64,000 nucleotides of DNA, from contig JAUYUB010000018.1 of assembly GCA_030692765.1 (NCBI GenBank), positions 1-64,000 on the forward strand, in the 5' to 3' direction. Origin of the DNA: Sulfuricurvum sp. (lineage in GTDB: Bacteria; Campylobacterota; Campylobacteria; Campylobacterales; Sulfurimonadaceae). The notes under the pieces were generated by a model. That model saw only the letters and a list, made by a program, of their open reading frames with translations, made no database searches and was not told the DNA's origin. Of this stretch, positions 1 to 20,643 are shown piece by piece. Made by a program: the position numbers and the translations under genes. How positions within the stretch are numbered: the first letter of the stretch is position 1; each line of letters begins with the position of its first letter.

Positions 1-831
1 GAGGCTTCAACCTTGCTTCTTTTTTCCGCATCTGATTATTCTGATAGAAAACGGATGATAGATACACAAAGTGATTCTCCCTATAAAAAACTGGCATTAG
101 ATAAACTGGAAGCAACCTCTAGATACGCTTCCTCAGAAATATGTCGCCATGTCCTAATAGCTGAGTATTTTGATGATCACTCACAGCCCTGTACAACACA
201 ATGCGACAACTGTACGCAAGACGATAAAAAAAGTGTTGATATCACACAAGATGCACTTAAGCTCTTATCATCTGTGTATCGCACTGGACAAAAATTTGGT
301 CTTCATTATGTGGTGGATGTTTTATTGGGCAGTATCAATGAAAAAATAGAGAATAACGGTCATCAAACACTCAGCGTATATGCCATAGGAAAAGATAAAA
401 GCCGTCACTACTGGTTAACGCTTGGGGATAGACTCTTAGAGTTAAAAGCACTAAAACAGGGGGATTTTCGAGTTTTAATGTTGGATGAGTTTGGTATGGA
501 AATAATCAAAAAATCACTCAGTATTACAATACGTAAAGAACGTTTAGTAGAACAAAAACGCTATACGAAAACGGTAATGGCTAACTACTCATCTGATGAG
601 TATCATCCGATATTTGAACAACTTAGAGGGTTACGCTCATCCATTGCAAAAATCAATGGTGTTCCGCCCTATGTAGTTTTTAGTGATAAGACGCTACAGG
701 AAATGGCCCTAAGACTGCCTCAAAACAAAAGTGAAATGTTGCAAGTTGGTGGGATAGGGGATGTTAAATTCGAAAGATACGGAAAAGAGTTTATAGAGTT
801 GTGCGGATCTATAAAAGAAAAATCTCCTTAA
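1..831 (+). CDS. recQ: ATP-dependent DNA helicase RecQ, C-terminal part (5' end outside window)
   Basis: The reading frame is already open at base 1, so the helicase core lies upstream of the window. The visible 276 residues hold the RecQ zinc-binding module (Cys at about 48, 64, 68 and 71 of the fragment, pattern C-x15-C-x3-C-x2-C), then the RQC winged-helix domain (about 80-170), then a C-terminal HRDC domain (about 200-272). RecQ is a 3'-5' helicase that acts on forked and recombination intermediates. The HRDC domain sets DNA-substrate preference. The order Zn-RQC-HRDC is that of full-length bacterial RecQ. The stop overlaps the stop of the converging small gene by 4 bp. Confidence 0.9.
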   Translation, partial: EASTLLLFSASDYSDRKRMIDTQSDSPYKKLALDKLEATSRYASSEICRHVLIAEYFDDHSQPCTTQCDNCTQDDKKSVDITQDALKLLSSVYRTGQKFGLHYVVDVLLGSINEKIENNGHQTLSVYAIGKDKSRHYWLTLGDRLLELKALKQGDFRVLMLDEFGMEIIKKSLSITIRKERLVEQKRYTKTVMANYSSDEYHPIFEQLRGLRSSIAKINGVPPYVVFSDKTLQEMALRLPQNKSEMLQVGGIGDVKFERYGKEFIELCGSIKEKSP

Positions 832-12589: not shown

Positions 12590-15500
12590 CTAGTCTGAAT
12601 CCATTACTTGTTTGCTGTAAGGAATAAAATGGGTCAGGGCATTAAGTAATGATGCATTGGATAACGGCTTAGTCAAAAGCATATCAAAGCCGAGACCTTC
12701 AAGCTTTTCTTGATCACTTTCCAACACTGCTGCTGTCAGAGCAATAACCGGTATTTTTTTGTATGATTCATGCTCCATTAACTTCTTTTTTAGTGTATAG
12801 CCATCCATTACGGGCATTTGCAAATCAAGAAGGATTAAATCTACTTTATGAATGGCTAGCTGTTCTAATGCTTCTATCCCATTCATGGCTTCAATAATCT
12901 CAAATGGATAGGGATCCAGTCTTGCACGTACCAACATCAAATTAAGATCTACATCATCAACAGATAAAATTTTTGCATTGGAAAAATCATAATGAACATC
13001 TTGTTCATCATTTTTATTGATCACTTTGGAATAATCAAATTTCAAAGCAGGGAAATGAATCTTAAATCGGCTTCCGCGGCCAAGTTCACTCTCTACTGAA
13101 ATCTTCCCATCCATAGCAGTTGCCAACTTTTCACTAATAGCGAGCCCCAGTCCAGTTCCACCATATTTACGATTATCTTGTTGATCACTTTGCTCGAAAT
13201 TATTAAATATTTTATCTTGCTCATGTGCAGCGATACCAATACCTGTATCTGTGACTATCAAAGTAATATTGGCAATACGTTCTTCTTGATCTATTTGATG
13301 TACATGTATTTCAAGAGAAATTATTCCTTTGTCTGTAAATTTAATAGCATTACTGAGAAGATTGAAAAGAATCTGTCTCAAGCGTACTTCGTCAAGTACC
13401 CATATATTAGGCATATCGGATGGATAATGAAGGTTGAATTGTAGATTTTTATCAAATATTACCGGCTGAAAAACACTTTTGATCTCTTCGATCAATGCTC
13501 CCATATCAAATTCTTTATTGTCGATAGTAAGCATGCCTGCTTCAATTTTTGAGAGATCCAAAATGTCATTGATAATTTGGAGTAAACTTTTGGCACCGCT
13601 TTTAATCGATTTCAGATAGCTGATCTGTGCCATGTTTAAGTCTTCACTTTTTTCTAACAATTCGCTAAATCCCAAAACAGCATTCATGGGTGTTCGTATT
13701 TCATGACTCATGTTTGCCAGAAAAAGACTCTTGGCACGATTGGCAGACTCAGCTTCATTACGTGCTGAGATCAAAGCAAGTTCATTTTGCTTTTGCTCAC
13801 TAATATCAAAAAGACTGATAAGATAGTCTTCAGAAACACCTTCATCCAATAGGGAAGCACTAACTAGGAATGTTTTTGTATAATCATCTTTACATCGGAT
13901 ATCGATTTCGAGAGGAACAAATCGGTTGTACGAAGAAAGCATGTCATTTAGATTCTGTTGCCATGATTTAATGACCCATTGGCGATACTCTTCATCAGGA
14001 TATGCACGTGGCCACCAATCTTCGAGGGTTGGTATCTCATCCAAAGTATATCCGAGTGTGTTGATAAAAGCATTGTTAATAAAAGTAATATTTCCATATT
14101 TATCATTAATGACTAGTGGTACTGGGGATGCATCAATAATAGTACGAGAGCGTTTTTCACTTTCTCTTAAGGCTTCTTGACGTAACAGTACCTGTTTCAT
14201 TTCTTTTTGTTGCGTAATATCACGCTGTACACCAAGCCACACTTCACCGTGTACCGGATGGGTAAAAGTTGAGAAGTCAGCAGAACACCAAATCGCTGTG
14301 CCGTCTTTTTTTACATTTTTGAGCTCACCTTTCCAGGTCCCTTTTTCATTTAAAATTGAAAAAGGATGTAAATGCATGTTATCCTCATTGGTATCATCTA
14401 AATCATAAAGTAAGCCAATGGATTGTCCAATCAACTCACGTTTTTCATATCCGAACATCATCTCTGCACCAAGATTGGTATAAACAATGGTGTTTGTTGA
14501 TGAATCAACAAGCAGTACCGCTTCTGACATCTGCTCTAATATTCTGGCCTGTAATCGAATATCGTCTTCCAATGTTGCTTGATTATTAATCCGCTGGTGA
14601 TTGTAGCGCTCCGGCATTATTGGCGGATTCATACCAAATTTTTCGATTATAGTAAATTCACCGTCTTCATTACAGCGTGACAAATAGGTATTGACAGAGG
14701 CATGATGAGTAACGGGGTCCATCTGTACCGTTCCCTGCGGAGAGGAGACTTGAATATTTTGCAATATTTCTACGAGTGCTTCTGAGTCTAGACTTCCGGC
14801 TGCATTGGCAGCTTGCGCAAAAGCTTTGACACACAGATACGCTCCCTCACCAAAGTTAGTCAAAATACCGTTACCATGCGGCCATATGCCATTGACACCT
14901 GGAAGTTTTGACAAACTGTTCTTGTATTTGTTGTTTGCTTCAGTGTCAATCGTCATAAAATAGGTATTGCTGGAGTAAAAATCTTCACGTACGGACGATG
15001 GAAGAATACTTGCCATGATCTCATCATAATGTCCCATGACTACAGCAATTTTATTTTTAAGACCGCGTTCGGTAAAGCGAGTAAGCAAGTTGATTTGATC
15101 CGCACCGGCAAAATAGGGGACAAACACATCCGGTGCTGCTTCTTCGATAGCATCCAGAAGGTGTTCAATCTCATCTAAAGGTGTTCCGATAGGACAATAT
15201 TTTTCACCGACAATCTCTCCGCCTGCTTTTAACAGCGCACGCTTGGCAGCATCTATCGAACCGCGGGGCCATTCGTAATTATTACCTGCAAAGAACATTT
15301 TTGGACCGTATCTTTCCCGCATATAGGGAATCATCTTATCGATTTGCTGATTTGGAAGAGCAGCAAAATGGAAAAAATAGCGGCTGAGAATACTTCCTTC
15401 ATAAAATGAAAAATTGAGCAAAGGAATCTTGCGCGGTTCAGCTACTTGATAAGCAACCGCAATACGTGAATTGGACAGCAGATTTCCAATGATCGCACTG

Positions 15501-15721
15501 CAATGATGCTGATCAACAAGTTTAAATGCTGCTGCAACCGCACTGTCAGGCAAGCTTCCATCATCTTCAATGATCAATTCAAGTGGTTTGCCCAGAACAC
15601 CACCATTTTCATTGACTTCATCACATGCTATTTGTGCAGCACGGGAAATCTCCATTCCATAGATACCAACTAGCCCTGTTAGCGGAGGCATAATTCCTAA
15701 TTTAACTGTTTGTTTAGACAT
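12590..15721 (-). CDS. Hybrid histidine kinase with N-terminal ABC-type amide/urea-binding domain, two PAS domains and receiver
   Basis: This is a 1043-residue sensor. Residues about 1-350 match the type I periplasmic-binding fold of AmiC/FmdD/urea-binding proteins (opening VKLGIMPPLTGLVGIYG, then NENGGVLGKPLELIIEDDG). Two PAS domains follow (about 385-500 and 520-640), then the H-box MSHEIRTPMN (His near 673), an HATPase domain with DTGIGI and GGTGLGLAIS, and a receiver with phospho-acceptor Asp in LLDLQMPVMDG (near 963). There is no signal peptide and no membrane segment, so the binding domain appears cytoplasmic. ATG 15721 is chosen because AGGTG lies 6 nt upstream. The ligand is probably a short amide or amino-acid-like molecule (inference). 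No cognate regulator is adjacent. Confidence 0.9.
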   Translation of the reverse strand: MSKQTVKLGIMPPLTGLVGIYGMEISRAAQIACDEVNENGGVLGKPLELIIEDDGSLPDSAVAAAFKLVDQHHCSAIIGNLLSNSRIAVAYQVAEPRKIPLLNFSFYEGSILSRYFFHFAALPNQQIDKMIPYMRERYGPKMFFAGNNYEWPRGSIDAAKRALLKAGGEIVGEKYCPIGTPLDEIEHLLDAIEEAAPDVFVPYFAGADQINLLTRFTERGLKNKIAVVMGHYDEIMASILPSSVREDFYSSNTYFMTIDTEANNKYKNSLSKLPGVNGIWPHGNGILTNFGEGAYLCVKAFAQAANAAGSLDSEALVEILQNIQVSSPQGTVQMDPVTHHASVNTYLSRCNEDGEFTIIEKFGMNPPIMPERYNHQRINNQATLEDDIRLQARILEQMSEAVLLVDSSTNTIVYTNLGAEMMFGYEKRELIGQSIGLLYDLDDTNEDNMHLHPFSILNEKGTWKGELKNVKKDGTAIWCSADFSTFTHPVHGEVWLGVQRDITQQKEMKQVLLRQEALRESEKRSRTIIDASPVPLVINDKYGNITFINNAFINTLGYTLDEIPTLEDWWPRAYPDEEYRQWVIKSWQQNLNDMLSSYNRFVPLEIDIRCKDDYTKTFLVSASLLDEGVSEDYLISLFDISEQKQNELALISARNEAESANRAKSLFLANMSHEIRTPMNAVLGFSELLEKSEDLNMAQISYLKSIKSGAKSLLQIINDILDLSKIEAGMLTIDNKEFDMGALIEEIKSVFQPVIFDKNLQFNLHYPSDMPNIWVLDEVRLRQILFNLLSNAIKFTDKGIISLEIHVHQIDQEERIANITLIVTDTGIGIAAHEQDKIFNNFEQSDQQDNRKYGGTGLGLAISEKLATAMDGKISVESELGRGSRFKIHFPALKFDYSKVINKNDEQDVHYDFSNAKILSVDDVDLNLMLVRARLDPYPFEIIEAMNGIEALEQLAIHKVDLILLDLQMPVMDGYTLKKKLMEHESYKKIPVIALTAAVLESDQEKLEGLGFDMLLTKPLSNASLLNALTHFIPYSKQVMDSD

Positions 15722-15867
15722 AATTGGCACCTATAGTTTTATACTTTACTGGAGTTTACAGTAATTACTTTATGATAAAAAAAACTAATGTATGTAAGTT
15801 ATAAACTTAAATAAATACAAAATTTTATTACATTTTTATTACATTTCACTTACGTAGTAAAAAACAA

Positions 15868-19714: not shown

Positions 19715-19924
19715 ATGGAATCTACAAAACAACAACTAATTGATGATATACAAAACTTACTTAACCGTTATGAGGGACTCTCTACCACAACCATCAACCC
19801 TGCACTGTTGGAATTTATGGATCGAGACACTTTATTAAGCATCATCAATTCACTCTTAAAGCAACAAGAAAACACCAATAAAGATAATCTTGATTGGCTG
19901 GAACAGTTCAAACATTATCAATAA
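19715..19924 (+). CDS. Small hypothetical protein (69 aa)
   Basis: This is an acidic, helical, soluble 69-residue protein with no signal or membrane segment. It opens MESTKQQLIDDIQNLL and ends LDWLEQFKHYQ. The ribosome-binding site is weak: AGG lies 12 nt upstream, within a small inverted repeat GGTAAA-CT-TTTACC whose second arm abuts the ATG. The gene lies just upstream of the receiver-RHH regulator and in the same direction, separated by 113 bp that hold that gene's promoter. I do not recognise a family. Coding status rests on an intact frame and reasonable composition. Confidence 0.5.
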   Translation: MESTKQQLIDDIQNLLNRYEGLSTTTINPALLEFMDRDTLLSIINSLLKQQENTNKDNLDWLEQFKHYQ

Positions 19925-19951: not shown

Positions 19952-19988
19952 CTTTAAGTTGCTAATTGGACTTCTTTAAGTTGTTAAT
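19952..19988 (+). promoter_or_regulatory. Paired direct repeats upstream of the receiver-RHH gene
   Basis: CTTTAAGTTGCTAAT (19952-19966) recurs as CTTTAAGTTGTTAAT (19974-19988): 14 of 15 bases are identical and the starts are 22 bp apart, about two helical turns. The second copy overlaps the presumed -35 region (TTGTTA at 19981-19986). Such spacing suits two regulator dimers on the same DNA face. Confidence 0.55.
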
Positions 19989-19997
19989 AATAGTTTT

Positions 19998-20020
19998 GTT
20001 ATATAATTTCACTATATAAC
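19998..20020 (+). promoter_or_regulatory. Palindrome over the promoter of the receiver-RHH gene
   Basis: A perfect 8-bp inverted repeat, GTTATATA and TATATAAC separated by ATTTCAC, covers the -10 box TATAAT (20002-20007) and the expected transcript start. AGGAG (20026-20030) and ATG 20038 follow. It is positioned to act as an operator for repression or autoregulation. Confidence 0.5.
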
Positions 20021-20037
20021 ACATCAGGAGAATAGCT

Positions 20038-20586
20038 ATGTCAAACGTTGATTTAATCCAACTCACTGAACAAACTAAAAAACTTACGGCAATGATCGTA
20101 GAAGACGAAGTTGTTGCCAATGATCTTTTAAGTTCTACTTTTAAAAACTTTTTTGCTGATGTCACATCAGCATACAATGGTGCTGAAGCATTACGTATGT
20201 ATGAAAAAGTTAATCCGGATATCGTATTCGTTGATATCGTAATGCCTGAAATTGATGGAATCGAACTCGCGCGCCGTATCCGTTCTATCAACCCTTCACA
20301 AATCATTATTGTTATTTCTGCAAGCAACGATATTCAAAAGATTTCTGAATCGATTGAGGTAGGTGTAAACAGCTTTATCCAAAAGCCTATCGATACAAAA
20401 AAGATTCTTGAAATGCTCCAAAATATTACAGCAATGATCGCTAAGCGCAAGAAAATTGAAACAAAAACATTCTCTATTTCTTTACCTCTTGATGTTTATG
20501 AGTTGGTTGATGATAATGCAAAAGCTGAGAGTATCTCAAAAAATGCCGTTATTATCCGCGCGTTGCGTTCATTTTACAACGATTAA
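20038..20586 (+). CDS. Response regulator: receiver domain fused to a ribbon-helix-helix DNA-binding domain
   Basis: Residues about 15-130 form a receiver domain with the acidic pocket E22-D23, phospho-acceptor Asp66 in FVDIVMPEIDG, the switch Ser94 in VISAS and Lys116 in QKP. After a basic linker (MIAKRKKIETK), residues 144-182 read as a CopG/Arc ribbon-helix-helix unit: a beta strand TFSISLP, then helices LDVYELVDDNAKAE and SKNAVIIRALRSFY. RHH proteins bind DNA as dimers through the strand, so phosphorylation could control dimerisation. AGGAG lies before the ATG. No histidine kinase is adjacent; a sensor must be elsewhere. A strong terminator follows. Confidence 0.82.
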   Translation: MSNVDLIQLTEQTKKLTAMIVEDEVVANDLLSSTFKNFFADVTSAYNGAEALRMYEKVNPDIVFVDIVMPEIDGIELARRIRSINPSQIIIVISASNDIQKISESIEVGVNSFIQKPIDTKKILEMLQNITAMIAKRKKIETKTFSISLPLDVYELVDDNAKAESISKNAVIIRALRSFYND

Positions 20587-20607: not shown

Positions 20608-20643
20608 CTAAAATCTGTAATTATTTACAGGTTTTAGTTTTAT
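20608..20643 (+). terminator. Intrinsic terminator after the receiver-RHH gene
   Basis: A 13-bp stem (20608-20620 with 20625-20637, one U-G pair, loop TTAT) is followed by TTTTATTTTA. It separates the regulator gene from tRNA-Glu. Confidence 0.8.

Follow-up and report, generated by a model that had tools for sequence, protein, structure and literature searches.

A receiver–ribbon-helix-helix response regulator of the Sulfurimonadaceae and a candidate operator at its own promoter

Analysis of a 64,000-nt stretch of Sulfuricurvum sp. DNA (hereafter, the window) confirmed that one of its genes encodes a response regulator in which a receiver domain (REC) is joined to a C-terminal ribbon-helix-helix (RHH) domain, an architecture on which profile matches, predicted fold, and conservation agree (Table 1). 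New here is the observation that, throughout the family, the regulator's promoter is strongly enriched in TAACA/TGTTA half-sites. The reading we favor, and regard as probable on balance, is that of a phospho-switched REC-RHH protein served by a distant kinase, which binds TGTTA/TAACA sites and counts negative autoregulation among its effects.

Table 1. Coordinates of the regulator gene, its domains, and flanking elements in the window
Feature	Position	Strand	Basis or remark
69-aa conserved ORF, syntenic neighbor	19715..19924	+	Upstream of regulator in 70/80 loci
15-bp direct repeat CTTTAAGTTG(C/T)TAAT, two copies 22 bp apart	19952..19988	+	Confirmed by pattern search; absent from the repeat tool's list
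Extra TGTTA half-site, 15 bp upstream of inverted repeat	19982..19986	+	
Perfect inverted repeat TGTTATATA-N7-TATATAACA, 25 bp, candidate operator	19997..20021	.	Sequence, genome search
Probable -10 box TATAAT	20002..20007	+	Sequence; within inverted repeat
REC-RHH response regulator, 182 aa	20038..20586	+	ATG-start ORF and orthologues
Receiver domain, residues 18-131	20089..20430	+	Pfam, CheY-like fold, conservation
Receiver residues: pocket E22/D23, phospho-acceptor D66, S94, switch F113, K116	20233-20235 (D66)		
Helix alpha5 extension and basic linker, residues 132-141	20431..20460	+	Model, variable stretch
RHH, residues 142-181	20461..20580	+	Profile, fold, conservation
RHH elements: strand TKTFSISLP (142-150), helix A 151-164, turn 165-167, helix B 168-181			
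Intrinsic-terminator-like hairpin, T-rich tail	20608..20637	+	

The N-terminal part of the window protein matched Pfam Response_reg over residues 19-127 (E 7e-26), and a fold search performed with the whole-protein model returned receivers as the sole matches, the fold being CheY-like (Z about 19). The acidic pair, phospho-acceptor Asp, Ser/Thr, and Lys were complete in 71 of 72 distinct homologues, S94 and K116 being invariant in all 72 and D66 in 71, and F113 was identified as the aromatic switch residue. Entropy was low in beta5 (0.02) and alpha4 (0.29), which are among the best-conserved elements of the receiver, as compared to 1.51 in alpha2. In the predicted model, a helix spans residues 120-139 unbroken and pLDDT falls below 50 at residues 139-143; the linker after alpha5 is short, flexible, and basic, and its sequence varies between homologues. 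No winged-helix or LuxR-type helix-turn-helix Pfam domain was found C-terminal of residue 127.

The tail was assigned to the RHH class by several lines of evidence. RHH_1 (PF01402) matched residues 145-180 of the window protein with an E of 0.0049 at full length and 5.6e-4 for the tail alone, a marginal match whose tail-alone score of 20.2 bits falls about 0.3-0.4 bits short of the curated cut-off of 20.5; on homologous tails, the profile matched 40/40 (best E 4.1e-6). An AlphaFold model of residues 134-182 as a single chain (mean pLDDT 90.5) showed an extended N-terminal segment followed by two helices. The RHH strand needs a partner chain, and hence it appears as extended coil in a single-chain model. 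Comparison of this model with the PDB gave PutA (Z 6.3), Arc (Z 6.2), and CopG (2cpg, Z 6.2), the last with an rmsd of 1.1 A over 42 residues and 29% identity. The 50 PDB matches listed were small DNA-binding or antitoxin-type proteins, by title mostly RHH, and included PutA, Arc, CopG, NikR, AmrZ, and ParD at Z 5-6.3, values that are modest because only 42 residues were compared; the match list is consistent. Searching PDB sequences with a profile of the tail returned nothing relevant (FucU, E 0.23). When CopG 1-42 was aligned to residues 141-182, its R4, T6, and T8, which we take to be the DNA-contacting positions, corresponded to T144, S146, and S148, all invariant among homologues. Indeed, the entire DNA-facing strand had zero entropy, being identical in 72/72 distinct sequences, and the RHH was the best-conserved part of the protein (mean entropy 0.34 bits vs. 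0.58 for the receiver). A preliminary description had proposed a standard receiver (Asp66, Ser94, Lys116) followed by a CopG/Arc-like RHH in place of a winged-helix or LuxR output, and had suggested structure prediction of the tail as a check. The three positions were correct, with E22/D23 completing the acidic pocket, and the tail, modeled as a single chain, takes the RHH fold that had been expected of it.

Orthologues were present in 125/151 Sulfurimonadaceae genomes (102 of the 117 good genomes), covering 16 of the 18 genera, and also in Thiovulum. Named Sulfuricurvum assemblies contained copies that were 99-100% identical. A second campylobacterial family (f4) carries a form that is ~60% identical, and in an even draw of 298 genomes of the phylum the regulator was found, at E 1e-40, only in Sulfurimonadaceae and f4. 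Changes between homologues fell mostly at third codon positions, and this bias, together with conservation of the RHH, argues that the ORF is not a product of chance. The receiver-RHH pair has apparently been inherited vertically. Since the gene is missing from some genomes (e.g., G067), it must be dispensable in places. One Sulfuricurvum lineage (locus L031, genome G003) combines D66E and D23S with an almost unchanged RHH; its promoter gap contains one TGTTA, and the usual small ORF upstream of the regulator was not found there. This pair of substitutions suggests a natural candidate for a phosphorylation-independent form.

To characterize the promoter, we defined gaps as the DNA separating the regulator from the ORF upstream of it and thinned the loci for similarity. 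Results showed 129 TAACA/TGTTA half-sites in 6,484 nt from 61 loci, as compared to 52 +/- 7 in shuffled sequences (z 11, a value that overstates independence, the shuffle control keeping the kinship between sequences), and TAACA/TGTTA ranked first among canonical 5-mers. Spacing of the half-sites varied between lineages, five of the 61 gaps had no half-site of either orientation, and a home-made expectation-maximisation procedure yielded low-information motifs only, with no single wide motif. TATAAT occurred 55 times in the regulator gaps vs. 16 in shuffles; the copy in the window went unreported by a generic promoter scan, which requires a -35 box. The inverted repeat over this -10 box recurs in the closest relatives. 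A regulon search of the 2.15-Mb genome found no second copy of it at one mismatch or fewer and no second site for a longer, 40-bp element. Of the direct repeat farther upstream, those related upstream regions that were read contain one copy only. Downstream, the hairpin suggests a one-gene transcript, and a tRNA-Glu gene follows the regulator. The regulator's own upstream region, put forward earlier as a DNA target, thus gains support from the half-site enrichment and from the inverted repeat. The protein probably controls its own gene and further genes.

According to the mechanism we favor, D66 would be phosphorylated by a kinase encoded elsewhere, the receiver would rearrange along alpha4-beta5-alpha5, and the extended alpha5 would relay this change to the RHH pair, whose affinity or cooperativity on TGTTA/TAACA half-sites would then be altered. 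The regulator's own promoter would be one target and, since the sites surround the -10 box, binding would most simply repress, i.e., negative autoregulation. Phosphorylation-driven dimerisation, as the preliminary description proposed, would be one form of this mechanism. We count against the favored mechanism that the operator was derived from the regulator's own promoter alone and that the shuffles keep the kinship between sequences, along with the variable half-site spacing, the lack of a wide motif, the five gaps devoid of half-sites, the mild enrichment of TAACA in other AT-rich gaps, and the D66E/D23S lineage, which probably does not need phosphorylation. A more ambitious version, which we offer tentatively and rate below an even chance, would describe a class of two-component transcription factors specific to this clade, whose receiver, through its phosphorylation, determines how the DNA-reading beta-ribbons pair or are spaced. 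Such factors would govern a core physiological regulon throughout the sulfur-oxidising Sulfurimonadaceae, and D66E/D23S would represent a natural phosphorylation-independent branch.

The main rival to phosphorylation-driven dimerisation is a constitutive RHH dimer that binds DNA in either phosphorylation state, phosphorylation serving to tune cooperativity between neighboring dimers, or to activate and not repress. Since the RHH units of CopG and Arc form stable dimers with no need of phosphorylation, the receiver's effect may instead lie in the spacing or cooperativity of dimers on DNA. Half-sites that are several in number and variable in spacing would suit such a protein, as would the variant in which D66E/D23S accompanies a nearly intact RHH. 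However, the acidic pocket is kept in all but one of the distinct sequences, arguing that phosphorylation matters in most lineages, and we consider a constitutive dimer rather unlikely.

It is also conceivable, if improbable, that the TAACA/TGTTA signal belongs to the promoter as such or is recognized by a different regulator, and that the REC-RHH protein acts elsewhere, without autoregulation. The full set of other intergenic DNA, being richer in G+C, was dropped as a reference, and low-G+C sequences and shuffles were used in its place. In AT-rich control intergenic DNA from the same loci, the half-site was mildly enriched as well (60 vs. 41 in shuffles; z about 3, calculated as 3.1), and when the window's gap was shuffled, 1.75% of the shuffles contained inverted-repeat arms of at least 9 by chance. 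Since that rate makes the repeat weak evidence when taken alone, it is the family-wide enrichment that carries the operator argument. Against an origin unrelated to the regulator, the signal is far stronger at the regulator gene, where it is the top-ranked 5-mer, and in the f4 family, whose form is ~60% identical, GTTA and AACA elements likewise lie on either side of the -10 region (judged by eye and unscored). That the tail mediates protein-protein dimerisation or binds a partner, rather than DNA, seems very improbable: the window protein's RHH_1 score does lie just under the cut-off, but the DNA-facing positions are invariant, the linker is basic, the nearest folds are DNA-binding RHH proteins, and no toxin-like partner gene was recognized in the conserved neighborhood.

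Genes near the regulator were considered as possible partners of the phospho-switched protein proposed above, and no kinase gene adjoins it in the window. The 69-aa protein encoded upstream has no informative Pfam match but bears the conserved motifs LLNxY, INPxLLEFMD, and WLEQFKK. Its family occurs in 94 of 298 Campylobacterota genomes, most of them without the regulator; being phylum-wide and persisting where the regulator is absent, it was rejected as an obligate partner. Three f4 genomes carry a FIST-domain histidine kinase gene that converges on the regulator, near or overlapping its 3' end (L146, 1067-5196, where there is a tandem pair; L147, 5674-7719; L148, 1446-3497), the FIST label being a reading of the sequence by eye and not a profile scan. 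These kinases are candidate partners in f4 only. As a general partner the FIST kinase was rejected, since the one FIST protein of the window genome is without a kinase domain. As a separate observation, positions 12590-15730 of the window encode a large hybrid kinase that combines Peripla_BP_6, two PAS domains, HisKA, HATPase, and a receiver, its ligand-binding domain starting near the predicted N-terminus.

Relatives of the two halves give some indication of how the fusion might have arisen. Among relatives, the other receivers closest to this one are those of REC-HD-GYP and REC-GGDEF proteins (37-40% identical), and the other RHH domains closest to the tail within the Sulfurimonadaceae are those of stand-alone regulators (E 2.6e-6; L181, 2418-2828, and L182, 1892-2287). 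The genes for the latter adjoin a replication-protein-like gene and a small gene of 88-89 aa, and their loci are probably filamentous-phage or plasmid-like elements. A plasmid search with the tail found no match, and one with the whole protein found receiver-level matches only, the best being an Aliarcobacter protein whose annotation is that of an ordinary response regulator transcription factor. A plausible origin would be that a local receiver became joined to a stand-alone RHH of the kind found in such phage- or plasmid-like elements.

The conserved receiver-RHH pair provides a clean test of receiver control over a DNA-reading surface that exists only in a dimer, and it does so in most genomes of an abundant sulfur-oxidising group (Sulfuricurvum, Sulfurimonas). 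Because the gene stands alone between promoter and terminator and has a concrete predicted operator, binding and its phospho-control are directly testable.

The output domains of DNA-binding response regulators are mostly of the helix-turn-helix, winged-helix, or LytTR type. Regulators of the OmpR/PhoB, NarL/FixJ, PrrA/Fis, and LytTR types likewise have an N-terminal receiver with an Asp pocket and a C-terminal DNA-binding domain; here, however, the output is a 40-residue RHH and not a winged helix, helix-turn-helix, or LytTR domain. Unlike these, RHH domains read DNA by a beta-ribbon contributed by two chains. The tail shares its fold, length, and strand pattern with the RHH domains of CopG, Arc, and PutA, but CopG and Arc stand alone, whereas the RHH described here is fused to a phospho-receiver. 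In nickel-sensing NikR, found also in Helicobacter pylori, the RHH is N-terminal and is accompanied by a nickel-binding ACT domain. NikR (2wvb, Z 5.7) resembles our protein in coupling an RHH with a sensory domain and differs in that our RHH lies at the C-terminus and takes its input from a receiver. The REC-HD-GYP and REC-GGDEF proteins of Campylobacterota have related receivers, but their output is enzymatic and directed at cyclic di-GMP. A described REC-RHH response regulator was not found in the open-access literature covered by the search, and the build's characterization as uncommon fits this limited search. The sole combination of RHH and receiver encountered was that of the Arc-type RHH-HisKA-REC proteins of Lokiarchaeum (PMC5847659), in which both domains likewise lie in one chain; the Lokiarchaeum protein, however, is a hybrid kinase with an N-terminal RHH and not a receiver-effector regulator (PMC5847659).
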